Shown here: in pieces, positions 2 through 62,484 of the stretch
Position numbering within the stretch: position 1 is the first letter of the stretch
Layout of the letters: the number at the start of each line of letters is the position of its first letter
Source: Piezodorus guildinii
Lineage: Eukaryota; Arthropoda; Insecta; Hemiptera; Pentatomidae
Direction of reading: 5' to 3'
NCBI GenBank assembly: GCA_023052935.1
Contig: CM041297.1
Span: 97,114,484 to 97,178,483 of the forward strand
Length of the DNA stretch: 64,000 nt
Program-made: the position numbers and the translations under genes
Notes under the pieces: generated by a model
Databases searched by the model: none
What the model was told of the DNA's origin: nothing
The model's input: the letters and a program-made list of their open reading frames with translations, nothing else

Positions 2-1930
2 TTGAGCTTAGGTCCCAATTTTTCTACCCCTTCTTCTAATCCTTCAAAAATGATTCCCCAACTTATCACGGATTTGGAATATATTTATAAAGATGATATT
101 TTCAAAATAAGTGAGGAGGACAAGGAAATCTCCCGTTTACGTATTAGTAATATGATCTCCAACCATCTCCAACGCCCTCCACCTCAATCGTCTCTTTCCC
201 CCTCTTCTTCAAAGATCTTTCCTTCACTCGCTCATTCCTCAGATCCAATGAACAACTTATAGTTACTAGGGCTGACAAAGGTAACGTGACAGTTATAATG
301 GACAAAACTGAATATGACGACAAAATTAACTCACTCTTATCAGACCGATCGACATATACACGATCTTCCCGTGATCCCACCCGCCCTCTCATGATTAAAT
401 TCAATCAACATATCAAAAATCTCTTAGAAAATAAATTCATCAACCTAACCACGTACAGAAACTTGATCTCGTACAACTCCTTACCCCCGCGTTTATATGG
501 CCTTCCCAAAATTCACAAACCCGGCAATCCACTCCGTCCCATCATTTCAAACATCAACGCACCTTCCTCGAAACTTAGTAAATTCCTTCTACCTTCACTT
601 AAAATACTTAGCCGAACTAACCCCTATGACATTAACAATTCCCTTTACCTCCGAGAACAGTTACTATCATTGCATATTCCCCCCAACTACATTCTAACAT
701 CCTTTGACGCCGAAAGCCTATTTACCAATATCCCCATTGATAAAGTTATCCAACTAGTAGAAAAACACTGGAACATCATTGAACCCCACACCACACTCAA
801 TCTTCTTTCATATTTAGAATCACTAAAACTTTGTTGTAAAACCGGATATCTCACTTTTCAGAACAAATTTTACAATCAGATCTCGGGACTTGCAATGGGT
901 AACTGTCTCGCTCCTGACCTCTCTAATATCGTACTAAATGACTTACTCGACTCTATAACCGCAACCTATAAAAATGAAATTATATTTATTAAAAAGTACG
1001 TGGACGACCTCTTCCTTATAATAAACCCAGACAAAATCCCCGATATCCTAAAATCGTTTAATTCATATGATCCACGCCTCCGTTTTACCGTAGAAAGAGA
1101 AAACAACTTGACAATTCCCTGTTTAGAATTACTTATCACTAGAAATACTGACGGTTCTATTTCAACTGACTGGTACACCAAATCCACCTATTCCGGTAGA
1201 CTGCTCAACTTCTTCTCCCAACACCCATATCATCAGAAATTAAATGTTGCCAAGAATCTCGTCCACCGTTGCCTATCCTTGTCTGATCCAAAGTACCATC
1301 CTAATAATATCGAACGTATTAAAAAAATACTAACCTTAAACAGCTTCCCAAAAAAAGTCATTAAAAACCTTATAGATTCTTATAACACAAAAACCACCGT
1401 TACTTCCCCTACAATTCCCGACCATGATTCACCCATGATATTTTTATATAGATCCCTTACCTTACATTCCGCACCTTTCTGAAAATATAAAAAAAATCCT
1501 TAAATTTTCCTTACCTTCCTTAAAACTAGGACTAAAGACCCAGAACAAGCTTTCTCACCTTTTTACCAATACAAAAGACCCGGTTACTCCTATATATCGT
1601 TCCAATATTGTTTATAAAATTTCATGTTCAGATTGTGATGTATCCTATGTAGGAGAAACCAAAAATTACTTAAAAACCAGAATATCGCAACATAAACTCT
1701 CCGTATCCTCTCGAAACCCTATAGCCTCAAAACTTTCTGAACACTCCATACATTTCAATCATTCCTTTAACTTTGACGACTGCTCCATTTTAGATTATGT
1801 TCCAAACCATAAGAAAAGACTAATCGCTGAATCCGTCCACATCCACCTCCAATCCAATCCTGTTAACCACAAAACCGATAAACAATGCATTTCCTCCACA
1901 TATAGCCACATATTAAACTCTATTAAGTAG
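2..1930 (+). pseudogene. Penelope-like element RT plus GIY-YIG endonuclease, frameshifted and cut by the window edge
   Basis: This is the polyprotein of a Penelope-like retroelement: a reverse transcriptase followed by a GIY-YIG endonuclease that nicks the target. The reading frame changes at least twice. An N-terminal stretch runs in frame 2 to about position 200. The RT core runs in frame 1 from about 200 to 1482, with the block RADKGN near 268-285, the GLPKIHKP-type block near 500 and the catalytic YVDD near 1000. The C-terminal part returns to frame 2 from about 1448 to the TAG at 1928-1930. That last part has a CSDC pair, then YVGET and an arginine-containing helix, the hallmark of the PLE GIY-YIG domain, and ends in VNHKTDK. 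No ATG is visible because the element starts before the window. The frameshifts make it non-functional. Family assignment is secure from the RT and GIY-YIG combination. Confidence 0.9.
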
Positions 1931-4896: not shown

Positions 4897-5928
4897 TATC
4901 GATTTTAAAAAGGCTTATGATTCAATAGACTGTCAGAAGCTATATAACATCATGATTGAACAGGGAATACCTAGAAAGTTAGTAAACCTAGTAGAGATGT
5001 GTTTGTCGGAAACATTTCATAAAGTTAGAATCGGTCATAATTACTCCGAGAGATTTGAGGTGCGATCGGGTTTGAAACTGGGTGACTTCCTTTCACCTGT
5101 TTTGTTTAATATAGCTTTAGAATATGTCATAAAAAATGTGATGTGTACCGAGAAAGGCTTAAATATAGGTGATAAGATTTCGGTTTTGGGGTATGCCGAT
5201 GATTTGGTACTGCTAGGTGAAACAGGGAAACCAAATAACTATATACAAGTGTGTTAATAAAAACCGGTAAAGAAATAGGACTCGAATTAAATACCGATAA
5301 GAAATATATGATTAGTAGCAGAAACGGTGGCGATCTTGGCGATATTGATATATCAGGGCATACTTTTGAACACGTAGAGAAATTCAAGTATTTAGGCTCA
5401 ATGATGACAAGAAAAAATGAAATCCAGGAAGAAATAAATTTCCGGTTAAAGGTGGGAAATGCGTGTTATTATTCAGTTGCTAGATTACTTAGCTCGCGGC
5501 TTCTGTCTAAAAACTTAAAGGTTAGAATTTATAAAACTATTATTCTTCCGACGGTTCTTTACGGATGTGAAACGTGGCCGCTTACTTTGAAGGATGAACA
5601 ACGGCTTAAGGTTTTCGAAAATAAGGTGCTGCGTAAAATATTTGGTCCGAAGAGAGATGAGGCCACTGGGGAGTTTAGAAGGTTGCACAACGCGGAATTG
5701 CGGAACTTGTATGCTGTGAATATAATTGAGTTGATAGCGTCGAGGAGATTCAAATGGGCGAGTAAAATTGTTGGGCTCGGTGAGGAACGGATTCCGAGAA
5801 AGTTGGTAGTTGCTGATCCGACTGGTAGGCGTCCGAAAGGTAGACCGAAGCGTCGATGGGAGGATTGCGTTAAGGCTGATCTTTGGGGGCTTGGGCTTGA
5901 ACGGAGAAGTTTGGACGAGTCTGTGTAG
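4897..5928 (+). pseudogene. RTE-type reverse transcriptase fragment
   Basis: The fragment begins inside RT at DFKKAYDSID and contains the catalytic YADD near 5190. It continues into the C-terminal region with CETWPLT, IFGPKRD and a basic RRPKGRPKRRW stretch. One frameshift near 5225-5255 separates the part ending after LLGE from the part starting at the Leu-Ile-Lys-Thr-Gly block. The protein would copy the element's RNA at a nicked target site, but the endonuclease domain is missing here, so this copy cannot move alone. Its sequence is very close to the copies at 25308-26213 and 41881-44888. Confidence 0.88.
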
Positions 5929-26585: not shown

Positions 26586-27965
26586 ATTTCAGATAATTCT
26601 TAATTACTTAAGAAACTTTTGTGAAGAAAATTCCGTCATTCCGTTTGAACAAACAGGTTTTCAAGCACAACTTAGCACTGAACATCACTTAATGAAATTG
26701 CAATATGAGATATGCAACAATTTTAATAAGAACAATGCAACTGCTATGATATCTATAGATTGCTCGAAGGCATTCGATTCCGTATCTCATTACATCCTTT
26801 GCCAGAAGCTAGCGGATCTTGAGTGCCAAGAACAACTCTATAATACCATTGCATCTTTCCTGGAAACTCGAACCCTATCAGTCCGAGTTCACGAAGAACA
26901 TTCTCGCACTGTTCTCCTTACTTGCGGTGTTCCTCAGGGTGCAGTTTTTATCTCCCGTCTTGTTCAATATATATACTGCAGACATAATAGGCCATAACTA
27001 TAAAACCGCTACAATAGCCGCATTCGCGGATGATATAGCCGTCTACAGTTCCAGTATGAGTCCAACTCAAGCTCTTACTCAGGCTGAATCGGTTTGTTAA
27101 ACCATTGTTCGGAAATTAGAGCAGTTGAACATCAGAGTGAATCCATCAAAAACGGATTGTATAGTGTTCTCTATCCAAAAAGGTAAAAAGTCTAGACTAC
27201 CAAAAGTTTTTCGAGTCGGCGGCACAGTTCAGCGACCCTCTCACGCTATTGTATACCTTGGTATCAAGATGGATCGCCATATGAAGCTCTCTGCTCATGT
27301 GTATAATAAAACAAGGTTGGTTAGAACCAAATTATACCGACTTCATCACCTTCTAACCTCTCCAGCGCTCTCACTAAGGCTTAAACTGTTAGTCTATAAA
27401 GGCATATTACGTCCTGCACTGATGTATGGCGCGCCATTGTTTACGCAACCAACTGAAACCACACCTTTAGCGATTTCAAAATACAATGCTCCGAAGAATG
27501 ACCCGTTCGACCTCAATGAAAAAGGTGAAAGCCGATCTCCTCCACGAAATTTTAGAAATACCAACAATTTCAGATTACATTAGGCAACGCCATGTTAAAT
27601 TTTTTGATTCTTTAAAAACATTAACTAACCCACTATTCAACACGATGACTCCAGCACCAGCTCCAGTACGATGGCAAAACACCACATAAATAAATGTTAG
27701 TTTTGATTAGGACTTTAGTTATAAATAAGTTAGTTAAGTTAGTAATAAGTTAGTCATAAGTCTTTCATGAACACGAAAAATGGGTGAGCCCCATCAGCTC
27801 TAATCTAATTTCAATCTAATCTATTTTGTAAACAACACAGTAACATAACACCCTCACACAATCTTAAAATGTAACATAGTTACAGTACAAGATATTTAAC
27901 TACATAAATTAATAATTAAATTTCATATTGTTAATAGGGGATCTGGAAAAAAAAAAAAAAAAAAA
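26586..27965 (+). mobile_element. 5'-truncated Jockey-clade LINE with poly(A) tail
   Basis: The fragment spans RT and the C-terminal domain, a 3' UTR of about 260 bases and a poly(A) tail at about 27948-27965. Flanking sequences gtcattatttatt (26573-26585) and gtcgttatttatt (27966-27978) match at 12 of 13 positions and are a probable target duplication. Confidence 0.82.
26594..27689 (+). pseudogene. Jockey-clade reverse transcriptase, frameshifted
   Basis: RT motifs appear in order: a T-G-F-Q block near 26650, D-C-S-K-A-F-D-S-V near 26757-26780, VPQG near 26930, L-S-P-V-L-F-N-I-Y near 26950 and F-A-D-D-I-A near 27020. The C-terminal region has V-N-P-S-K-T-D and a T-R-L-V-R-T block. One extra base near 26945 shifts the frame between VPQG and the S-P-V-L-F block. 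An in-frame stop lies at 27098-27100, and a further shift near 27480 leads to the C-terminal end with R-W-Q-N-T-T. It differs clearly from the 3'-tail family at 50593, 55861 and 61687. Confidence 0.85.
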
Positions 27966-29276: not shown

Positions 29277-29470
29277 CGATTCTCTATCTTCAATAATAAC
29301 TGAGTTTTGGTGGAATTACATCTATTATAATTTGTGTTGAATATGTAGATCAAGTATGGGTAAAATTTCAATATTTTTCTTTCTTCTATTTTTTATAATT
29401 ATTTGCAGTTAAAAACACTAATAAACTTTTTCTATATTTTTGAAAATAACGGAGTTACCAATGTATATAT
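29277..29470 (+). repeat. Repeat family R, left part, interrupted by the gypsy element
   Basis: It shares the ggaattacatctattataat block with the copy at 11930-11965 and the gaaaataacgga block with 12900-12911. The sequence continues after the gypsy element at 36110. Confidence 0.55.
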
Positions 29471-30035
29471 TGCTACGGTCAAGACAATGACGTGTGGACC
29501 ACGCCTGGAGGGGCCTAGATGAGGCTAGAGACTTCTGGACCTGGACAGTCCTCGAAGTGCCTGGAAAGGCCCACCACCCTACCTGCGCCCGGGTCTAGAA
29601 GATTCGGCGGTGGTACAAATAGCGGTCCCCTGAGCCTAGGTGAGTCAGTCTTAATCCGGCTCAACAAGTATCAGTGATGTGTCAGTGAACAGTGACAGTG
29701 AACAGTTCGTGACAGTGTGACAGTATAGTGAAACTGTGTGTCAATATTGTGATAACCGGTCGGTGGGAAATTAGAAGACTGTAGTTTATATATGTGTTTT
29801 ATAGTTGTAAGTTCTAGAATAAGTCTATCAGATTGTATGAATTTACGTAAGTAGTTTATTTGTTAGGAATACCTCATTTTATATGTATACTGTTTAGTAG
29901 TTAAGCTAGTGATTCCATTATTATTGTTAATATAGTGGTTAGTAATCCCTTTGTATTTGTGTTTTTTGTATTTAATAAATATTTGTAATTTGTAAACTGG
30001 AGTAGTTCATTTCTCACACCCCGTAGCCCGTAACA
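29471..30035 (+). repeat. 5' long terminal repeat
   Basis: The LTR is 565 bp, begins TG and ends CA (tgctacggtc ... cccgtaaca). A TATA-like tacaaata at 29614 lies about 30 bases before a TCAGTC initiator-like word at 29645, a plausible core promoter. AATAAA at 29974 is a plausible polyadenylation signal. Confidence 0.95.
29614..29650 (+). promoter_or_regulatory. Putative LTR core promoter
   Basis: A TATA-like tacaaata (29614-29621) is spaced about 30 bases from a TCAGTC word (29645-29650) that fits the arthropod initiator consensus. Transcription start is inferred, not shown. Confidence 0.45.
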
Positions 30036-30038
30036 ATT

Positions 30039-30055
30039 TGGTGTCAGAAGTGGGA
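30039..30055 (+). other. Primer-binding site
   Basis: The sequence tggtgtcagaagtggga begins three bases after the 5' LTR and starts with TGG, the complement of a tRNA CCA end. It would pair with a tRNA whose acceptor arm reads TTCTGAC, which fits insect tRNA-Leu. The tRNA identity is inferred from general knowledge. Confidence 0.75.
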
Positions 30056-30119
30056 TCATTGTAAATGGTTATAATTTTGGTTTTCTTGTTTTTGTAATTA
30101 TTGGGCTACTGTGTGGAAA

Positions 30120-32000
30120 ATGACTTCTCAGAGTGTTAGACTGAATGATTTAAAAGTTGCAGACTTAAGACGGGAGTTAGAAGAACGAGATCTGGATACT
30201 TTCGGAACGAAATCAGTACTGCAACAACGCTTGCGCCAATTTTTTGTTGATTCAGGGGAAAATCCAGACGAGATTACGTTTGAAAATGATTTCAGTAAGT
30301 TGTCTGCAACTTTTAAAAATGAGTTAAAGAAGTTAGGAAATGAGTTAGGTAATGTAGAAAAGAAGTTAGGAAATGAGTTAGGTAATGTAGAAAAGAAGTT
30401 AGGTAAAGAGTTAAGTACTGTTAAAAATACATTGGAGGCCAAGTTAGGCAATTTAGAAACTAAGTTAATGGAGAGTGTAGATAATAAGTTAGCTGATGTA
30501 GAATCTAGATTAGGAGAAAAAGTCGATTCAGTAGAAAATGAACTTAGGGTAAGAATAGAAGCTCTAGAAGAACGTATGAGCAACCCACCGACAATCCACA
30601 CCGACCAACCCTCTGAGAGAAGCCCTCACAACACCATTCCCCCCGCCAATGCTGGGATGCCACCAACGCACAACACCATCCCATTGTTCGACGGGAAGAC
30701 GCCGTGGGAGGACTACATGACTCTCTTCGAGACAGCGGCTTCGATCCACGGGTGGTCAAAGGAGACGCAAGCATCAGCGTTGTGCCTAGCCTTGCGTGGA
30801 GACGCCTTAGGAGTGCTACAGGGGATGCCCATGTCGGAGCGGTGCAACCACAGTAAGCTGATGAAAAGACTGGAGATGCGTTTCGGCCATCGCCACATGG
30901 ACCAACTATACCGTTCCCAGTTAAAGAACAGGGTCCAGAAGACCAACGAGACGCTGCAGGAATTTGAAGCAGATATCGCCCGGCTAGTGAGGAATGCCTA
31001 CCCAACGGTCACCGACGACGTCTACGAGAGCTTGGCTATCGACAAATTCCTGGATGGACTTCGAGACCCGGAAACCCAACAGGCAGTGAAACTCGCACGC
31101 CCTAAAACTTTGGGCGATGCATTGTCGCAGGCCATGGAATTCGAGGCTGTCAGGCAGTCGGTCCGTGGACATGCACGAGTTCGAGCGGCAGAAGCGGAGC
31201 CTAACGCGGCCCCCACCATCGAGGACATAGTAGCAAAGGTTTTAGAAGCCCTCAGGACCCGCAAAAAGGAGATACGCTGTTGGAGCTGCGGTCAACTTGG
31301 ACACCCCAGAAGCAAGTGTCCTACCAGGAAGCCGGAAAAAGCCACAGGAAAACTAAGGAGGGTTGATGGGAAGGGGCAACTGTCAACCCGTAGCATCAAA
31401 GGCCCCAGGGTCGCCGAGAGAATCGCGACAATAGGGAGCAAGACAAATAGTTTCTATGTGGATGGAATGGTGAACGGGCAGCTGCGGAGTTTTCTGCTGG
31501 ATACCGGCGCAACCATGACAATACTGAACCCGAAGGCAGTTAACGCTGAGAAGATATCACCTACCACTTGGGCGTTACGGACAGCCACAGGACAGCCAGC
31601 CGAGGTCTACGGGGAGACAGTTGCCACTTTCTTCATCGGGGGCCAACGTCTAGAGCACCGCGTTCTCGTGGCGAAAATAGACGAGGAAGTCATCTTCGGC
31701 ATGGACTTGATGATCAAATACGGGATCAAGCTGGACATGTCGAGAGGTGTGATGACGCTGGGAGACGAAGAGGTCATCCTTCGGCAGGGAAAGGACCTCT
31801 ATGCACGAGTACTCCTACTGGAAGACACCACTTTACCTGCACGGAGTCAAATTCTGACGCATGGGACGATCAATGGACGACTACCGGAGGGTCAATGTCT
31901 TCTACTTGAACCTGGGAAGCACGAGGAGCAGGAAGTCGGACGCGGTGTTCTGGTTGCAAGGTCTCTCATCAAGGTCGGACATACCACCCAATCCGACTGA
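30120..32000 (+). CDS. gag: Gag-protease with N-terminal SAP motif
   Basis: This 626-residue protein starts at the ATG at 30120. Residues about 8-42 match a SAP motif (L-K-V-A-D-L-R-R-E-L...K-S-V-L-Q-Q-R-L), a DNA-binding module unusual in Gag. Residues about 60-165 form a long coiled coil built partly from an 11-residue repeat. A retrotransposon-type capsid follows, with the W-E-D-Y and L-R-G-D-A signatures. A CX2CX4HX4C zinc knuckle lies near residues 386-400, and the aspartic protease has its catalytic DTGA at about 461. The protein would package the element RNA and process the polyproteins. It ends at TGA 31998-32000, sharing its last base with the ATG of pol. Confidence 0.93.
   Translation: MTSQSVRLNDLKVADLRRELEERDLDTFGTKSVLQQRLRQFFVDSGENPDEITFENDFSKLSATFKNELKKLGNELGNVEKKLGNELGNVEKKLGKELSTVKNTLEAKLGNLETKLMESVDNKLADVESRLGEKVDSVENELRVRIEALEERMSNPPTIHTDQPSERSPHNTIPPANAGMPPTHNTIPLFDGKTPWEDYMTLFETAASIHGWSKETQASALCLALRGDALGVLQGMPMSERCNHSKLMKRLEMRFGHRHMDQLYRSQLKNRVQKTNETLQEFEADIARLVRNAYPTVTDDVYESLAIDKFLDGLRDPETQQAVKLARPKTLGDALSQAMEFEAVRQSVRGHARVRAAEAEPNAAPTIEDIVAKVLEALRTRKKEIRCWSCGQLGHPRSKCPTRKPEKATGKLRRVDGKGQLSTRSIKGPRVAERIATIGSKTNSFYVDGMVNGQLRSFLLDTGATMTILNPKAVNAEKISPTTWALRTATGQPAEVYGETVATFFIGGQRLEHRVLVAKIDEEVIFGMDLMIKYGIKLDMSRGVMTLGDEEVILRQGKDLYARVLLLEDTTLPARSQILTHGTINGRLPEGQCLLLEPGKHEEQEVGRGVLVARSLIKVGHTTQSD
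30330..30395 (+). repeat. 33-bp tandem repeat inside gag
   Basis: Two identical 33-bp units (30330-30362 and 30363-30395) encode an 11-residue K-L-G-N-E-L-G-N-V-E-K step in the coiled coil. A third, diverged unit follows. The period fits three 11-residue coiled-coil turns. Confidence 0.85.
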
Positions 32001-34630
32001 TGAATCTGAACACCTTCCCGGTGACACTAAAGAGAGGAACACCAGTCGGAGAATGTACGGCCGCTACCTCAGTAGTTCGACAGCTACAACGCAACCCCAC
32101 CGAGCAACGAGGACTACCCGAAGAATTAAAAGGATTCGTGGAGGAATCATGCAGAGAACTTTCGCCTGAACAGAGCGAAATCGTGAAGAGATTGATTACC
32201 CGATGGCAGGACATTTTCGAGATCAGCTCAGGACCACGGGGTAGAACGAACATCGTCCAGCACAAAATTGACACCGGGGATACAAAGCCCATCCGACAGA
32301 TCCCGAGGAGGCTGCCGCTAGCTAAACGAAAGGATGCCGAGGAGATTATTAAGGATATGGCGAATGATGGTGTCATCGAGCCCTCGAGTAGCCCATGGAT
32401 GTCTCCTGTCGTACTGGTGAAAAAGAAAGATGGGACGACAAGATTCTGCGTAGATTACCGTCTTTTGAACAACGCCACGAAGAAGGACAGTTACCCACTC
32501 CCAAGGATTGACGACACGCTGGACACACTAGAGGGTTGCAAACTATTTTCTACCTTGGATCTCCGCAGTGGATATTGGCAGGTTGGATTGGCACCGGAAG
32601 ATAAGGAGAAGACGGCATTTTCAATCGGCACTGGCCTCTGGCAATTTACGGTAATGCCATTCGGGCTTTGCAATGCACCTGCAACGTTCGAGAGGCTGAT
32701 GGAAAGCGTCTTAAGAGGCCTTTCTTGGGAGATATGCCTGGTTTACTTGGACGACATCATTGTACTGGGAAAATCCTTCACTCACCATCTGGAGAATCTG
32801 GAGCGGGTCTTCGAACGGCTGCGTGCAGCTAATCTAAAACTGAACCCGAAGAAGTGCAATCTCTTCCGAAGGCAAGTCAACTACCTGGGGCATGTTGTAT
32901 CAGGCAACGGAGTTGCTGTTGACCCAGAGAAGATTACAGCGATCACCAATTGGCCAGCACCTCGAGATAAGCACCAAGTGAGAAGTTTCCTCGGGCTCTG
33001 CACCTACTACAGGAGGTACGTGAAAGGATTCGCCAACATCGCAAAACCTCTTACCAGGCTCACTGAGGAAAAACGGACTTTCCTTTGGGATCGCGAGTGT
33101 CAGGCTTCATTTGAGGAGTTAAAGAAGAAATTGAGTAGTGCGCCTATTCTAAGCTATCCACGTCCCGAGGGCAAGTTCATTCTTGACACAGATGCCAGCA
33201 ACACTGCTATTGGGAGCGTCCTTTCCCAACTCCAAGACGGGGAAGAAAAGGTTATTGGGTACTTCAGCAAAGCACTGTCAGCTCCAGAACGCAACTACTG
33301 TGTCACAAGGAAAGAGCTTCTGGCAGTGGTTAAGTCCATAGAGCACTTTCATAAATACCTGTATGGAAGAAGATTTCTACTGAGAACGGACCACGCTGCT
33401 CTAATGTGGCTGCTGCGATTCAAGTCACCGGAGGGACAAGTTGCACGGTGGATCGAGCGCCTTCAGGAATATGACTTCGAATCTGCTCATCGTTCTGGAA
33501 CGAGTCACCGGAATGCGGATGCGCTCTCAAGGAGACCCTGTGACGGAGAATGCAAGCATTGTTCTCGACAAGAAGAAAAGCAAGCAACAGTGTTGCGGAC
33601 TACGGTCGTTACCGACGGTTGGCAGGACACACAACTGGCAAAGGAACAGGACGAGGACCCGGACTTGAAGCAAATAAGGGAATGGAAGCTATCAGGCCAA
33701 AGGAGACCAAGCTGGCAGGATGTTGCTCCAATGTCGAAAAATATAAAAACCTATTGGGCTCAATGGGACTCCATTCTACTGGACAAAGGTCTGCTGAAAC
33801 GAGCATTGGAGAACACAGATGGAGATCAGCGGAGACTACAGCTCATCGTACCAAAGATTAAAGTGCCCGAAGTACTGAGGGAATTACATGATGGAGCATC
33901 TGGTGGCCACCTTGGAGTTCACCGGACATTAGAAAAGGTTCGTGAGCGCTTTTACTGGGCAAACCTCAAGGACGATGTGTTAGATTGGTGCCGGCGGTGT
34001 GCAACTTGTGCCGCCTCTAATGGACCGATAAGGAAAAAGAAGGCACCTATGAAGAAATACAACGTAGGAGCACCATTCGAGAGAATAGCGGTAGACATCG
34101 CTGGCCCTTTTCCTGTGACAGATAATGGCAACCGATATATTCTCGTGGCCATGGATTATTTTTCAAAGTGGGTGGAAGCTTACGCCCTTCCGAATCAGGA
34201 GGCCGCCACGGTTGCAGATGTTCTCGTGAAGCAGCTCGTCAGTCGGTTTGGGGTGCCCATGGAACTTCACGCTGACCAAGGAAGAAACTTTGAGTCGGCA
34301 GTCTTCACCAGGATGTGCGAGGCTCTAGGAATACGAAAGACCAGGACGACGCCTCTTCACCCTCAGTCCGATGGCATGGTAGAGCGCATGAACAGGACAA
34401 TGGGTCGATATTTGGCCAAGGTAGTTTCTGACCATCAGCGAGACTGGGACCAATATCTTCATCTGTTCCTGCTAGCCTATCGTAGTTCAGTTAATGAAAC
34501 GACAGGGCAGACCCCCGCCAATGTCGTGTTCGGCAGAGAACTACGCTTGCCTTGCGATCTGAAATTCGGTTTCAAGCTGATGAGGAGGTCGCCGGAGAAG
34601 ACTACGTCACGAACCTACGGAAGCGAATGA
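32000..34630 (+). CDS. pol: Pol: reverse transcriptase, RNase H, integrase
   Basis: The ORF opens at an ATG that overlaps the gag stop by one base. RT is at about residues 90-280, with L-D-L-R-S-G-Y-W-Q and the catalytic YLDD at about 249-252. RNase H has D-T-D-A-S near 396 and T-D-H-A-A. The integrase shows the HHCC zinc region (H-L-G-V-H...C-R-R-C-A-T-C) and then its catalytic D, D and E in V-D-I-A-G-P, H-A-D-Q-G and V-E-R-M-N. The reading frame is lost at about 34575 and runs to a stop at 34628-34630 after some 20 unrelated residues. The true continuation is in another frame (34552-35538). The protein makes cDNA and inserts it. Confidence 0.94.
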   Translation: MNLNTFPVTLKRGTPVGECTAATSVVRQLQRNPTEQRGLPEELKGFVEESCRELSPEQSEIVKRLITRWQDIFEISSGPRGRTNIVQHKIDTGDTKPIRQIPRRLPLAKRKDAEEIIKDMANDGVIEPSSSPWMSPVVLVKKKDGTTRFCVDYRLLNNATKKDSYPLPRIDDTLDTLEGCKLFSTLDLRSGYWQVGLAPEDKEKTAFSIGTGLWQFTVMPFGLCNAPATFERLMESVLRGLSWEICLVYLDDIIVLGKSFTHHLENLERVFERLRAANLKLNPKKCNLFRRQVNYLGHVVSGNGVAVDPEKITAITNWPAPRDKHQVRSFLGLCTYYRRYVKGFANIAKPLTRLTEEKRTFLWDRECQASFEELKKKLSSAPILSYPRPEGKFILDTDASNTAIGSVLSQLQDGEEKVIGYFSKALSAPERNYCVTRKELLAVVKSIEHFHKYLYGRRFLLRTDHAALMWLLRFKSPEGQVARWIERLQEYDFESAHRSGTSHRNADALSRRPCDGECKHCSRQEEKQATVLRTTVVTDGWQDTQLAKEQDEDPDLKQIREWKLSGQRRPSWQDVAPMSKNIKTYWAQWDSILLDKGLLKRALENTDGDQRRLQLIVPKIKVPEVLRELHDGASGGHLGVHRTLEKVRERFYWANLKDDVLDWCRRCATCAASNGPIRKKKAPMKKYNVGAPFERIAVDIAGPFPVTDNGNRYILVAMDYFSKWVEAYALPNQEAATVADVLVKQLVSRFGVPMELHADQGRNFESAVFTRMCEALGIRKTRTTPLHPQSDGMVERMNRTMGRYLAKVVSDHQRDWDQYLHLFLLAYRSSVNETTGQTPANVVFGRELRLPCDLKFGFKLMRRSPEKTTSRTYGSE

Positions 34631-35538
34631 ACACTATTCACGAGAAGGTTCGCACAAACATCCAGGGAGCAAGTGACAGAATGAAGGAGCGTTATGACAT
34701 CAAGGCAGAGAAAGGTGGCTTCCAACCTGGAGACTTGGTCTGGCTACACGATCCTCGAAGAAGGCAAGGCTACTCACCGAAACTTCAAAACTCCTGGGAC
34801 GGACCGTATGAGGTCATCAAGAGGATCAATGATGTCATCTATAGGATCAGGAAGCAGCCCAAAGGAAAACCCAAGGTAGTCCATTTCAACCGATTGGCTC
34901 CATACAAGGGAAACCATGGCCCTACAGAGGAACAGCAAGTGAGGAACCTCACCGACAAGGACCTAACTCCCCATCCTAAGGCGCCAGACTCCCGTAGGGT
35001 AACGCAGACAGTTTACAGAGACATATTCTCGTTACCGGTAGACTATGCTCTAGCACACTGTGTCGCCGAACATCTGAGGAATTCCCGGGGGATTGCGACG
35101 GTCTTCAGGAAGAAGTTCGCTGGAATTGAAGAGCTGGAACGCCAGGGACCAAGAGTTGGGAAGACTCTCCATCAAGAGCATGAAGGCCGGCACCTGTTTT
35201 ACTTGGTTACCAAGAGTTCATCAGAGCAGAAGCCGACATACGACACACTGCGCCGGAGTCTTGACGACCTGCGGAGAAAGCTTCTGGAACTGCGTGTCAC
35301 CAAGCTCGCCATCCCGAAGTTGGGTTGTGGATACGATGGCCTGGAGTGGAGGATTGTCAGGAACATGGTAGAAGAGACGTTCGCCAACTCTGGAGTCATC
35401 ATAATGGTATGCACGTTCAACCCCTGGAAAGACAAAACACCTACATCGGAGGAATATCAGCATCGCTCAGCTTCTGCAATCTGTGCTCTGGGGCAGAGCA
35501 CGTCTAAGGAGGGGGTAGTGCTACGGTCAAGACAATGA
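34552..35538 (+). CDS. Pol C-terminal part: integrase GPY/F region plus TARG1-like macro domain
   Basis: This frame has no ATG at its start; it continues Pol after the frame change near 34575. Residues about 10-120 are the integrase C-terminus, with the Asp-Glu-Glu-Val-Ala-Gly-Glu-Asp-Tyr-Val linker and a D-G-P-Y-E-V GPY/F core. Residues about 154-290 (35011-35421) fit a macro domain of the TARG1/OARD1 type: A-H-C-V-A-E, G-I-A-T-V-F-R-K-K-F, Y-L-V-T-K-S, K-P-T-Y, and a P-K-L-G-C-G-Y-D-G-L-E-W motif. Lys221 and Asp262 sit where TARG1 has its catalytic Lys and Asp. TARG1 removes ADP-ribose from acidic residues. The frame passes the polypurine tract and stops 20 bases inside the 3' LTR. Activity and protein processing are inferred. 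Confidence 0.85.
   Translation: MRSEIRFQADEEVAGEDYVTNLRKRMNTIHEKVRTNIQGASDRMKERYDIKAEKGGFQPGDLVWLHDPRRRQGYSPKLQNSWDGPYEVIKRINDVIYRIRKQPKGKPKVVHFNRLAPYKGNHGPTEEQQVRNLTDKDLTPHPKAPDSRRVTQTVYRDIFSLPVDYALAHCVAEHLRNSRGIATVFRKKFAGIEELERQGPRVGKTLHQEHEGRHLFYLVTKSSSEQKPTYDTLRRSLDDLRRKLLELRVTKLAIPKLGCGYDGLEWRIVRNMVEETFANSGVIIMVCTFNPWKDKTPTSEEYQHRSASAICALGQSTSKEGVVLRSRQ
35506..35515 (+). other. Polypurine tract
   Basis: The purine run aaggaggggg lies three bases before the 3' LTR and would prime plus-strand DNA synthesis. The pol-macro reading frame runs through it. Confidence 0.8.
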
Positions 35539-36078
35539 CGGGTGGACCACGCCTGGAGGGGCCTAGATGAGGCTAGAGACTTCTGGACCTGGACAGTCCT
35601 CGAAGTGCCTGGAAAGGCCCACCACCCTACCTGCGCCCGGGTCTAGAAGATTCGGCGGTGGTACAAATAGCGGTCCCCTGAGCCTAGGTGAGTCAGTCTT
35701 AATCCGGCTCAACAAGTATCAGTGATGTGTCAGTGAACAGTGACAGTGAACAGTTCGTGACAGTGTGACAGTATAGTGAAACTGTGTGTCAATATTGTGA
35801 TAACCGGTCGGTGGGAAATTAGAAGACTGTAGTTTATATATGTGTTTTATAGTTGTAAGTTCTAGAATAAGTCTATCAGATTGTATGAATTTACGTAAGT
35901 AGTTTATTTGTTAGGAATACCTCATTTTATATGTATACTGTTTAGTAGTTAAGCTAGTGATTCCATTATTATTGTTAATATAGTGGTTAGTAATCCTTTG
36001 TATTTGTGTTTTTTGTATTTAATAAATATTTGTAATTTGTAAACTGGAGTAGTTCATTTCTCACACCCCGTAGCCCGT

Positions 36079-36082
<4 letters not shown>
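35519..36082 (+). repeat. 3' long terminal repeat
   Basis: It is 564 bp, matching the 5' LTR except for one substitution (gacgtgtgg against gacgggtgg) and one missing base in a ccc run near 35996. The near identity shows a recent insertion. Confidence 0.95.

Positions 36083-36108
<26 letters not shown>
36083..36108. repeat. AT microsatellite
   Basis: A pure (AT)13 run directly abuts the 3' LTR, so the exact target duplication of the gypsy element is ambiguous. Confidence 0.9.
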
Positions 36109-41880: not shown

Positions 41881-44800
41881 CTAGCGAACCCGAAGGTTCG
41901 ATGCCGATACCACCAAATTCCGCCTACACAGACTCGTCCAATGCTCACCATTCAAGCCCAAGCTCCTGAGATCAGCCTTAACGCAATCCTCCCATCTCCG
42001 CTTCGGCCTACCTTTCGGACGCCTACCAGTCGGATCAGCAAATACCAACTTTCTCGGAATCCGTTCGTCATCGAGCCCAACAACTTTACTCGCCCATTTG
42101 AGTCTCCGCGATGCAATCAGCTCAATTAAATTCACAGGATGCAAGTTCCGCAATTCCGCGTTATGCAACCTTCTAAACTCCCCAGTGGCCTCATCTCTCT
42201 TCGGACCAAATATTTTACGCAGCACCTTATTTTCGAAAACCTTAAGCCGCTGTTCATCCTTTAAAGTAAGCGGCCACGTTTCACATCCGTAAAGAACCGT
42301 TGGAAGAATAATAGTTTTTTAAATTCTAATCTTTAAGTTTTTAGATAGAAGCCGCGAACTAAGTAACTTAGCAACTGAATAATAACACGCATTTCCCACC
42401 TTTAACCGGGACTTTATTTCTTCCTGGATTTCATTTTTTCTAGTTATAATTGAACCTAAATACTTGAATTTCTCTACGTGTTCAAAAGTATGACCTGATA
42501 CATCAATATCTCCAAGATCGACACCGTTTCTGCTACTAATCATATACTTCGTTTTATCGGTATTTAATTCGAGTCCTATTTCTTTACCGGTTTTTATTAA
42601 CACACTTGTATTTAGTTGTATGGTTTCCGTGTCTTCACCTAGCAGTACCAGATCATCGGCATACCCCAAAACCGGAATCTTGTCACCCATATTTAAGCCT
42701 TTCTCGGTACACATCACCTTTTCTATGACATATTCTAAAGCTATATTAAATAACACAGGTGAAAGAGAGTCACCCTGTTTTAAACCCGATCGCACCTCAA
42801 ATCTCTCGGAGTAATTATGACCGATTCTAACTTTATGGAATGTTTCCGACAAACACATCTCTACTAGGTTTACTAACTTTCTAGGTATTCCCTGTTCAAT
42901 CATGATGTTATATAGCTTCTGACGGTCTATTGAATCATAAGCCTTTTTAAAATCGATATAAAGTTGATGGACTACACCGTTGTATTCCAATTTTTTCTCT
43001 AATATTTGACGTAGGGAAAATATTTGGTCAATAGTCGAGCGATTCCGCCTAAAACCACATTGGTAATCTCCGATAATTTCCTCAGCGTATTCCGTGATTC
43101 GACTAGTTAGAATTGACGAGAATATTTTATAGCATACTGGGAGAAGAGAGATCCCACGATAGTTGTTACAATCCGACCTCGGTCCTTTTTTGTGAATCGG
43201 AATAAGTATTGATTCTTTCCATTCCTCGGGCATTTTTTCAGTTTCCCAGATCTTTTTAACTAAAAAATGTATTTTGGAAACGCCCGCTTCTCCACACGCC
43301 TTGATTAATTCACTCGTGATATTATCATTTCCTGCGGCCTTATAACGTTTTAATTTTCCTATCGCCATTTCGACTTCCTCTTTACTCGGTGCGTCTATCC
43401 ATGGTTCAGCGCTCTGATATTCAGAGAGAGGAGATTGATTATTATTTTCCGTATTTAAGATGCCGTCAAAGTGTTGTTTAAATTTATTTAATATCTCAGA
43501 AGGATCCGCAATTATATTGTTATTTGCATCTTTAATCGCATTCAATAGAGGTTCAAATCTTTTACGCGATTTGTTTATACCTTTGTACATCTCTCTTACG
43601 TCATTTTCGTTTCTGTGTTTTTCTATTTCTATTATTTTGCCTTTAAGATACTCTCTTTTCTTATTTTTTAAGAGTTTTGAAGTTTCATTCTTTACTAACC
43701 GAAAATAAGCCACATTATTATCGCTTGGATTATTTAAGGAATTCAGTTTAGCGGTTTTTCTTTTTTCGCACATATTTTGACAATCCCTGTCGAACCAAGG
43801 TTTGTTCTTTTTATTTTCAATTTTTCCAAGACATAAATTACCGACCTCTTTAATATTATCCCTGATCCCTTCCCATAGTTTGTTTACATCTTTGTGTTCC
43901 TCGTCTGAAGATTCCAAAGCTTCGAACCGATTTTTTACTTCTATCACGAATGGTTTTCTAATTTCGAGGTTGTTCAATTTAACTAAATCAAAATTCTCGG
44001 GACGAATATAGTTCGGTGTTCTCTTTTTTGTATTTAGTTTTTGTCGAAGTTTCGCGATTACTAATTCATGATCAGAACCGCATTCTGCACCCCGATACGA
44101 TCTCACGTTAATTATGCTACTTTGCCATCTGTTTTGTATTAAAACATGATCGATTTGATTCCGTGTTTGTCCATCCGGCGATGTCCACGTATACTTATGA
44201 ATATCCTTATGTTTAAATGTAGTACTTTTGATTACTAGGTTTTTCGAAATGGCAAAGTTTATTAGTCGGGTCCCATTATCATTACTATATTCGTGCAAAC
44301 TTTCTTTACCGATTGTAGGACGATATACTTCTTCCCTTCCAACCTTTGCGTTCGCGTCGCCTAGTATTATCTTAATGTAATTTCGTGGTAACTTATCGTA
44401 AACCGACTCTAGTTTATCATAAAATTCGCATTTTACTTCATCATCACTGTCTTCGGTGGGAGAATGAATGTTTATAAACGCGATTTTAAACCAACGCCCT
44501 TGAAATATAGCAACCGATATTCTTTCACTAAAGAACTGTACGTCCCGTAAAGCGGAAAGAAATCTATTCCTAATCAGAAACCCGGTACCTAGACAATAAT
44601 TAACGCTCCCCCGTACCAAATAGTATACTTTCCTTCTGTTAACGAACCCTCCCCTGGCCAGCGAACCTCTTGTAATGCAACGATATCTAAATGGTACACC
44701 TTAACTTCATTCGCGACCGACTTTAACCCACCTGCCGTATTTAAACTTCTAACGTTCCACGTCCCTATTGTTAGATCTCTAATTTTCATCTTGCGCCATG

Positions 44801-60639: not shown

Positions 60640-61675
60640 GAATAAACATAAAAATATAAGGTTTATTCCATTAACAAGAAAAGTAATAATGAAATAGTCT
60701 TCATCATTTAATTATTTCATGAAAAAGTAACTAAATATGGTTTTCAGAATTGATTAATGTTTTTTACGACCTTATTCTTATGATGGATATTTTTCGGTGG
60801 TTAAGACCTTGGGTGAGAGATTAAATGTGATCTCTTATCCAGCTCTTTATCAGCTTTCTTCTGGGGTTATTTATGATAATATAATTAATGGGCTGATAAG
60901 AGTTACCATATAAATTAGGATAAAAATTCGTGATAAACAAGGGTCCGTGTGAATGAATATGTAAATTGTAATACTAAAGTGTGAAAAAGATGCTCAAAAA
61001 TGTGATTACGAAAATTCTAAAACCTTTTTTATTTCCTTTTTGACTAAATCATATGTTCGTAATATATATATTTAATTGGACGCCTATGAGCAATGTGATA
61101 AAAAAAAAAATTATCTTAATTTTGAATTTAGTATGAAACTTGTTTCCTTAATCATTAGTCAGTCAAACGTCAAGAAAACCAAAACGAGTTCTTCGTGAAA
61201 AAAACTTGGGATTCATCACGAAAGTTATGCTTTAAAAAGTTATCTATAATCTCGAATGCGAAACGGCCTGAATGCTTCGCGACTTTGTAATCTGGATACT
61301 TGACACGTCATTCAAAAAAGCTCGCCTTCTCAGCCATATTATGCAAATTGTAACTGCCGTGTTTTAGGATAAAATTTACATGGAAATGATGGATAAGGGC
61401 GGCTAGCCAGACATAAATTTTATTTTCGCCGTTCATAAGAAAAAAAAATCTACCACTTTTTTTTTTATATAAAGTATTCATGGAGAAAATACGTCTTCTT
61501 TGACTTGAGTATACTAACTATATATAATTTATTTGGCCTTGAAACGACGTTTATTATTTATTTATGAAAACTGAGGTGTATAATAGTTTCCTGTACCTAT
61601 AAATATTCTAGATACGGTGTCTAAGGTGAATTATTACTTTTTTATTATAATTAAAAAAAAGTTATTATTATTTTA
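60640..61675. other. No recognised gene
   Basis: AT-rich sequence with short patches of mixed composition and no motif. Confidence 0.5.
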
Positions 61676-61686
61676 TTTATATATAA

Positions 61687-62484
61687 TCAATAACGATCCT
61701 ACTATTGCCTCTCAAACTCTTCAATCCCATATCAGAGAGCTTGAGATATGGTGTCAGAATTGGAGAATCAAAATCAATTCCAACAAATCCTATCAAATTA
61801 CCTTTACCCTTCGTCGTAAACCTATGACATCCTGCCCTACAGTTTCCTTTAATAATATTCCGCTTGTTCCAGTTGAACAGATCCGCTACCTAGGACTACT
61901 ACTTGACAAACGTCTAACATGGAATCCCCACACACGACTGAAACGACAAGAAACTGCCCGTCGCTTTCGCTTACTACAACACTTACTGGACAGACGCTCC
62001 AACCTTCCACTTATCTACAAAAGGCTCATCTATATCATCATCATAAGGCCTATCTGGACTTACGGAGTTGAGCTTTGGGGCTCTACGAAACCATCAAATT
62101 CTTCCCATATTCAATCCTTACAGTCCAAAAACTTCGAAAAATCCTCAATGCTCCTTACTTTGTCACAAATAAACTCATCAATAAAGACCTTAACATCCCA
62201 TATGTTGCTGATTTGGCCCGAACCAGGTATCAATCCTTCCATGACAAACTCCACTCCCACTCCAATCCTCTAGTTTCAATTCTTGCTTCCTCTTCAATTC
62301 CTGACAATCCTACGAGGCGCCTGAAAAGAAGATGTCCTCGAGACCTTCTAGTTTAGTTACTTAGTGGAGTGATGCCAATGGGCATTTTCTCTTCTCGTTT
62401 TTTTCATGTATTTTATCATTATTAACATATTTACTTGTTGTATTACAAAATAAAGTTGTAAATTTCAATAAAAATATTAAAACA
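61687..62484 (+). mobile_element. Jockey-type LINE tail, plus strand
   Basis: An 11-bp duplication, tttatatataa, lies at 61676-61686 and 62485-62495, in AT-rich sequence and so only probable. The UTR after the TAG at 62354-62356 includes gagtgatgccaatgggcat and ends aataaaaatatt without a clean poly(A) tail. Confidence 0.75.
61690..62356 (+). pseudogene. Jockey-type RT C-terminal region, one frameshift
   Basis: The frame starts at N-D-P-T-I-A-S, directly downstream of where YADD would be, and contains C-Q-N-W-R-I-K-I-N, R-Y-L-G-L-L-L-D-K-R-L-T-W and W-T-Y-G-V-E-L-W-G. It loses frame near 62130 and continues in another frame with K-I-L-N-A-P-Y-F-V and the R-R-L-K-R-R-C-P-R-D-L-L end. Similarity to 50735-51664 is very high. 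The RT core is missing. Confidence 0.85.

Follow-up and report, generated by a model that had tools for sequence, protein, structure and literature searches.

The Pol polyprotein of a Ty3/Gypsy retrotransposon family in Piezodorus guildinii ends in a segment that is almost certainly a macro domain of the TARG1/OARD1 type, located downstream of the C-terminal GPY/F module of the integrase. The copy that we analysed lies in a stretch of 64,000 nucleotides of contig CM041297.1 (positions 97,114,484 to 97,178,483; hereafter the window), for which a preliminary description made from the letters alone had proposed such a fusion. As the best explanation overall we consider it somewhat probable that the domain is an ADP-ribosylhydrolase acquired by a Gypsy element, and that it would act in the integration complex.

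Organization of the element and its reading frames

The following features of the element were mapped in window coordinates, and all are located on the + strand.

29465..29470 (+): left copy of a possible target-site duplication, ATATAT
29471..30035 (+): 5′ LTR with TG...CA ends, 565 bp
30039..30056 (+): primer binding site, TGGTGTCAGAAGTGGGAT, in the sequence 3′ of the 5′ LTR
30120..32000 (+): gag ORF, with a SAP domain and an aspartic protease that score over the Pfam cutoffs
32000..34630 (+): pol ORF, with reverse transcriptase (RT), RNase H, integrase zinc-binding domain and catalytic core; frame break 3′ of the integrase core
34552..35538 (+): ORF of 328 amino acids in a frame other than that of the pol ORF (open from 34498), with GPY/F, linker, TARG1 macro domain and tail
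34576..34917 (+): integrase C-terminal module, GPY/F (Integrase_p58_C / SH3_Tf2-1), by Pfam match
34918..34995 (+): linker between GPY/F and macro domain, with low pLDDT and little conservation across elements
34996..35427 (+): TARG1/OARD1-type macro domain, by sequence and predicted-structure match (the structural match extends to residue 289, at 35418)
35212..35214 (+): Lys221, equivalent to catalytic Lys84 of human TARG1 by structure register
35335..35337 (+): Asp262, equivalent to catalytic Asp125 of human TARG1 by structure register
35506..35518 (+): polypurine tract, AAGGAGGGGGTAG, read through by the macro ORF
35519..36082 (+): 3′ LTR, 564 bp
36083..36088 (+): right copy of the possible target-site duplication, ambiguous owing to the AT microsatellite that forms the right flank

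The element has the protease, RT, RNase H and integrase order and the GPY/F module of Ty3/Gypsy elements, together with TG..CA LTRs, a primer binding site (presumably a match to tRNA-Leu), a polypurine tract and the ambiguous target-site duplication. In pairwise comparison the two LTRs are one substitution and a single 1-base gap apart. The gag stop and pol start codons overlap in TGATG; matches of the gag ORF to capsid and zinc-knuckle models are weaker and remain under the Pfam cutoffs, and imperfect repeats of 33 bases (11 residues) follow one another 3′ of the SAP domain (30293-30535). No env ORF is present 3′ of pol in the ORF list of the window, and the element is thus not of the errantivirus or env-bearing retrovirus type. 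The only other ORFs of at least 80 amino acids on the pol side are frames of 92 and 80 amino acids, both of which overlap the macro ORF.

Elsewhere in the window, an ORF of 766 amino acids (42319-44619, − strand) encodes an RT and has an endonuclease match under the cutoff, another RT ORF is found at 286-1482 (+) and a weak RT fragment at 61617-62273 (+). The ORFs at 5251-5928 and 27125-27583 have no Pfam matches, and a tRNA scan of the window returned no tRNA genes.

Two Pfam models recognize the GPY/F module in the 34552-35538 ORF (PF22938, E 6.9e-15; PF24626, E 4.8e-8). This ORF continues past the macro domain and the polypurine tract and stops about 20 bases into the 3′ LTR (35506-35538). 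Several relatives end in C-terminal peptides resembling that of the window element (KEGAVLR, LRRGQC), which we take to be polypurine-encoded as well.

The window copy encodes the integrase core (ORF end at 34630) in one frame and GPY/F with the macro domain (frame open from 34498) in another, so that the macro domain shares its frame with GPY/F and not with the core. Frames were compared at the 18 best-match loci of two genome searches, one of which (L066) is the window itself. Because 13 of the 17 other copies carry the integrase core motif and the macro domain in one open segment, the family truly possesses the Pol-macro fusion, and it is the window copy that is broken at the junction. Three database proteins (P0002, P0015 and P0018, the last a gene model that is possibly spliced) likewise contain integrase core, GPY/F and macro domain within one predicted protein. 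Given these single-frame copies and proteins, it is unlikely that the macro ORF is reached by a programmed frameshift. The proposed fusion to the end of a Gypsy Pol therefore applies to GPY/F in the window and to the integrase core as well in most of the other copies compared, but not to the integrase core of the window copy.

The macro domain and its active site

A phmmer search matched the segment to human TARG1 (PDB 4j5r/4j5q) with an E value of 5.7e-32 over 135 aligned residues, corresponding to ORF residues 154-288. In the predicted structure, model residues 149..289 pair with TARG1 residues 12..152, a register in which the human number equals the model number minus 137. The predicted domain is closer to TARG1 than to the other macro classes compared, and a viral-type macro domain was rejected, TARG1 being much closer in the structure comparison. 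The overlay on OARD1 that had been suggested as a check thus supports the assignment, whereas the profile check is divided: Pfam Macro (PF01661) gives 16.2 bits against a cutoff of 22 (E 0.011), compared with 26 for the host-like protein P0068, and would by itself mislead where phmmer finds a clear match. Annotation that relies on the Pfam Macro model will miss the domain in the window. The preliminary description had set it at 35011..35421, which is the right position with a start about five residues late.

Ala172 occupies the position of human Ser35, presumably an active-site residue of secondary rather than defining importance; Ala is found here in 33 of 40 aligned rows, P0068 included. The first glycine loop reads SRG, compared with GAG in human TARG1. 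As had been proposed, Lys221 and Asp262 correspond through the register to human Lys84 and Asp125, described as the catalytic dyad of TARG1 (PMC9411070). We expect with good confidence that the domain binds ADP-ribose, and it is probably an active hydrolase in the lineage of the window element.

A residue census covered 39 elements (the window included) and P0068, with 22 of 61 macro-bearing proteins set aside as partial domains. Among these 40 rows, the catalytic Lys position holds K in 37 and R in three, and the Asp position D in 35 and G in two, with the residue absent in three. Both residues are kept in 33 of the 39 element rows, and one or both are lost in the other six: P0020 and P0027 lack both, P0022, P0030 and P0050 lack Asp, and P0038 has R for K. 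Five of these (P0020, P0022, P0027, P0030 and P0038) form one sub-clade with support of 100, and possibly represent reader-only versions. By sequence, then, the family of the window looks catalytically equipped, and some relatives look like readers only.

Relatives, genomic copies and selection

A protein database search yielded 91 homologues, many of which share a species and hence are not independent. With phmmer, GPY/F was detected in 87 and the macro domain in 60 (P0068 among them), and 56 of the 91 carry both within one predicted protein. Beetle sources of macro-bearing proteins include Aromia, Molorchus, Exocentrus, Callosobruchus, Diabrotica, Leptinotarsa, Gonioctena, Harmonia and Holotrichia, and the leafhopper Macrosteles is a source as well. 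Gypsy elements with the same fusion, a search for which had been proposed as a check, thus exist elsewhere. The remark that no standard Gypsy lineage with this fusion was known agrees with the literature matches listed, none of which describes one, but not with the elements themselves, as the fusion is typical of a lineage in beetles, a leafhopper and P. guildinii.

Between elements, median pairwise identity falls from 69% in GPY/F to 51% in the macro domain, 39% in the linker and 38% in the tail (22 complete-domain proteins including the window; 215 pairs with less than 85% GPY/F identity). Compared with 13 relatives, the window element has 12-31% identity in the linker and 44-59% in the macro domain. 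TARG1-like macro domains with 27-46% identity also occur on 61 IMG/VR viral contigs (L001-L061).

Some relatives are annotated as cellular genes. A macro-only protein search returned two proteins, each from a leafhopper. Macrosteles gene models named 'OARD1-like' share 67 and 63% identity with the domain in the window, and their N-terminal starts resemble the element linker. The OARD1-like labels of P0037 and P0092 (Macrosteles) and P0059 (Leptinotarsa) call for caution in annotation, as these leafhopper and leaf beetle models look like pieces of retrotransposons, with an element-type linker or GPY/F upstream of the macro domain.

The history of the domain was examined with a macro tree (LG+G4, 1000 ultrafast bootstraps) in which the host side consisted of host-like P0068 and eight vertebrate OARD1s taken from 115 host-like proteins (best 120 of 2384 matches); the mussel protein P0093 was left out by a span filter. 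On the question of a single gain of the domain, the 41 element rows group together with support of 89, lower than the 95 usual for ultrafast bootstraps, and elements plus P0068 are separated from the eight vertebrate OARD1s with support of 100. No insect host OARD1 was confirmed: a search of the P. guildinii genome with P0068 gave apparent element copies only (best 150 of 509).

A CCCH finger directly C-terminal of the macro domain is present in 26 of 40 element proteins (including P0002, P0003, P0005-P0011, P0015, P0017-P0020 and P0022); these 40 are drawn from 62 element-like macro proteins, and the other 14 include true absences, degraded fingers and truncated ends. Pfam detects the finger weakly in P0003, P0018 and P0034. 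The bearers form one clade (support 85), outside which lie the window element, P0028, two leafhopper rows, P0001, P0004 and P0013. On that rooting, the macro domain would have been gained first and the CCCH finger later. In a GPY/F tree of 71 tips, 41 of them with the macro domain, a macro-free group of 19 (0.99) is placed beside the macro bearers with support of just 0.17, and nine more macro-free tips are found among the carriers. On this tree, macro-free relatives may have lost the domain or may never have had it. The macro-free proteins P0047, P0048, P0054 and P0057 seem to be truncated or damaged. P0058, a GPY/F relative, looks like a true case of absence, and because it has GPY/F without the macro domain, not every element needs the latter.

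The macro segment, searched against the 1.2-Gb P. guildinii assembly, had 558 candidate matches, of which the best 150 were scored. Each is 98-100% identical, and none of these 150 has a stop inside the matched segment. The surrounding open frame spans 1444 amino acids in 38 of the 150 (a hand count), compared with 346 in the window copy; some genome copies have open frames of more than 1800 amino acids around the segment. The element family is high-copy and very young. The recent activity that had been suggested from the near-identical LTRs is borne out, and with at least 150 copies, the segment is clearly not peculiar to the window.

So that the macro domain itself had no part in the choice of copies, those for a selection test were picked by the DNA of the integrase region (33700-34400). 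The best 40 of 480 candidates were scored, one being the window, and the downstream stretches of the other 39 were compared; as the best-scoring candidates, the compared copies are young. All 39 have a GPY/F match; the macro part is missing from L138, five stretches are gapped and L127 has 49 gap bases. L138 and L127 were kept in the comparison. The macro region of the 39 contains no stops in the reference register. Synonymous and nonsynonymous variants number 11:16 in GPY/F, 4:4 in the linker, 22:20 in the macro domain and 5:10 in the tail. With a neutral nonsynonymous/synonymous ratio of 2.54 for the macro region, derived from the observed transition bias of 56:36, nonsynonymous variants of the macro domain are at 0.36 of the neutral expectation (one-sided binomial p 0.0008), a deficit found by the kind of dN/dS check over the domain that had been proposed. 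The corresponding values are 0.52 for GPY/F (p 0.07), 0.40 for the linker (p 0.16) and 0.83 for the tail (p 0.46). The linker ratio taken alone is low too, the macro domain does not differ significantly from linker plus tail (Fisher p 0.44), and macro variants present in at least two copies number 5:5 (p 0.12). Selection on the macro domain is thus modestly supported within a young set of copies, and is not significantly stronger than on the flanks by the Fisher test. Overall, we regard it as highly likely that selection keeps the domain.

Proposed role and comparison with known systems

Viral macro domains are a well-known answer to host ADP-ribosylation. We propose that a Ty3/Gypsy ancestor gained a TARG1-type domain between the GPY/F module and the polypurine tract. 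The domain would be made together with integrase, or cleaved from it, and would ride in the particle or the pre-integration complex, where it could bind ADP-ribose and hydrolyse mono-ADP-ribose added by host ADP-ribosyltransferases to the integration complex, to chromatin at the integration site, or to DNA or RNA ends. PARP-linked repression might thereby be relieved, or adducts that block reverse transcription or the repair of integration gaps might be cleared. Known activities of TARG1 include the removal of ADP-ribose from Glu/Asp (PMC4245714), from thymidine in DNA (PMC8501950) and from RNA and DNA phosphate ends (PMC11833690). TARG1 is also reported to relieve the growth arrest that DarT causes in E. 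coli (PMC8501950).

Retroelements may plausibly be under pressure from ADP-ribosylation. SIRT6 silences L1 through mono-ADP-ribosylation of KAP1 (PMC4695847). In Drosophila parp-1 mutants, five elements were significantly up and three down, and 10 more, nine of them of the gypsy superfamily, were up without passing the FDR; the authors consider repression by PARP-1 possible, perhaps indirect (PMC7712786). Since the fusion is present in several insect elements, these may counter or exploit a host tagging system, and whether the domain has an anti-host or self-protective role seems to us an almost evenly balanced question. More tentatively, and with some doubt about so complete a scenario, an insect Gypsy lineage found in several beetles, a leafhopper and the family of well over 100 copies in the window genome may encode in its integrase an active TARG1-type hydrolase with which it clears its integration complex or nucleic acid of PARP/ART marks made by the host, the CCCH finger being added in one clade, as a counter-defence. 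Against the hydrolase explanation we count the six of 39 element rows without Lys or Asp, the changes of Ser35 to Ala and of GAG to SRG, the absence of the domain from P0058, the frame break in the window, the modest result of the selection test and the fly study, in which just eight elements were significant and the effect was maybe indirect (PMC7712786).

Its main rivals are two roles that are not exclusive. Chromodomains, which are C-terminal integrase extensions, tether chromovirus integrases to histone marks, and the equivalent position of the macro domain would, by analogy, suit a module that chiefly reads ADP-ribose and anchors integrase to ADP-ribosylated chromatin at breaks or sites of active PARP, with hydrolysis secondary or serving to release the tether. 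The CCCH finger added beside the domain in one clade and the loss of Lys or Asp in six of 39 element rows, five of them in one clade, favour such targeting, but 33 rows retain both catalytic residues, which is beyond the need of a pure reader, and we consider this role unlikely. Rather doubtful, too, is a domain with little activity on proteins that strips ADP-ribose from the element's own cDNA bases or RNA/DNA ends, as TARG1 and DarG do; no insect host enzyme is known to place such adducts on retroelement nucleic acid.

It is very improbable that the domain is a captured host segment without function and in decay. The lack of the domain in P0058, the lost catalytic residues of some rows, the frame break in the window copy and the non-significant comparison with linker plus tail would fit such a passenger, but the fold and active site are retained across elements that are about 50% identical, nonsynonymous variants stand at 0.36 of neutral (p 0.0008), and the matched segment is free of stops in all scored copies (best 150 of 558). 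We rejected, as practically negligible, an accident of assembly or annotation in which a cellular OARD1 gene adjoins the element: gene models named OARD1-like do exist in the leafhopper and leaf beetle, but one ORF takes in GPY/F, the macro domain and the polypurine tract and extends into the LTR, the genome holds at least 150 copies, and in 56 of 91 homologues a single predicted protein contains both GPY/F and the macro domain. Because a successful, recently amplified family keeps the domain with a nonsynonymous deficit, biochemistry and PARP knock-down in insects can be used to test whether ADP-ribosyltransferases police genome-resident retrotransposons.

A macro domain in a retroelement has a precedent in fish retroviruses, and fusion of the TARG1 type to a Gypsy Pol is apparently undescribed among the matches listed in the literature covered. 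In the full-text literature (titles and abstract openings; subscription papers and Repbase lie outside it), none of the matches listed describes this fusion, and the main text of a 2014 survey of ADP-ribosylation genes (PMC4245714) contains no word starting with 'transpos'. Epsilon-like endogenous retroviruses of fish carry extra ORFs for macro-domain proteins (Basta et al. 2009, as cited in PMC4977317). These teleost elements are likewise LTR-type retroelements with a macro protein, of unstated macro class and encoded by an additional ORF in a vertebrate retrovirus, whereas in the window it is a C-terminal Pol extension of an insect-type Gypsy element. The bdelloid Vesta and Juno LTR elements likewise have a captured enzyme, a GDSL esterase or DEDDy exonuclease, but as a separate ORF3 in the env position (PMC5408684); the main text of that report contains no word starting with 'macro' or 'ADP-ribos'. 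Macro domains of RNA viruses (alphavirus nsP3, rubella) are similarly virus-borne and ADP-ribose-binding. The macro domain of DarG, the DarT antitoxin, lacks the Asp of the Lys/Asp dyad, unlike the window domain (PMC9411070). Compared with human TARG1 (OARD1, C6orf130), a macrodomain hydrolase of the ALC1-like class, the window version is fused to the C-terminus of a retrotransposon integrase, has Ala at Ser35 and SRG for GAG, and its activity is predicted only. The element resembles other Ty3/Gypsy LTR retrotransposons in gag-protease, RT-RNase H-integrase order, GPY/F, LTRs, primer binding site and polypurine tract, and differs in the extra TARG1 domain that follows GPY/F and in having no env ORF.
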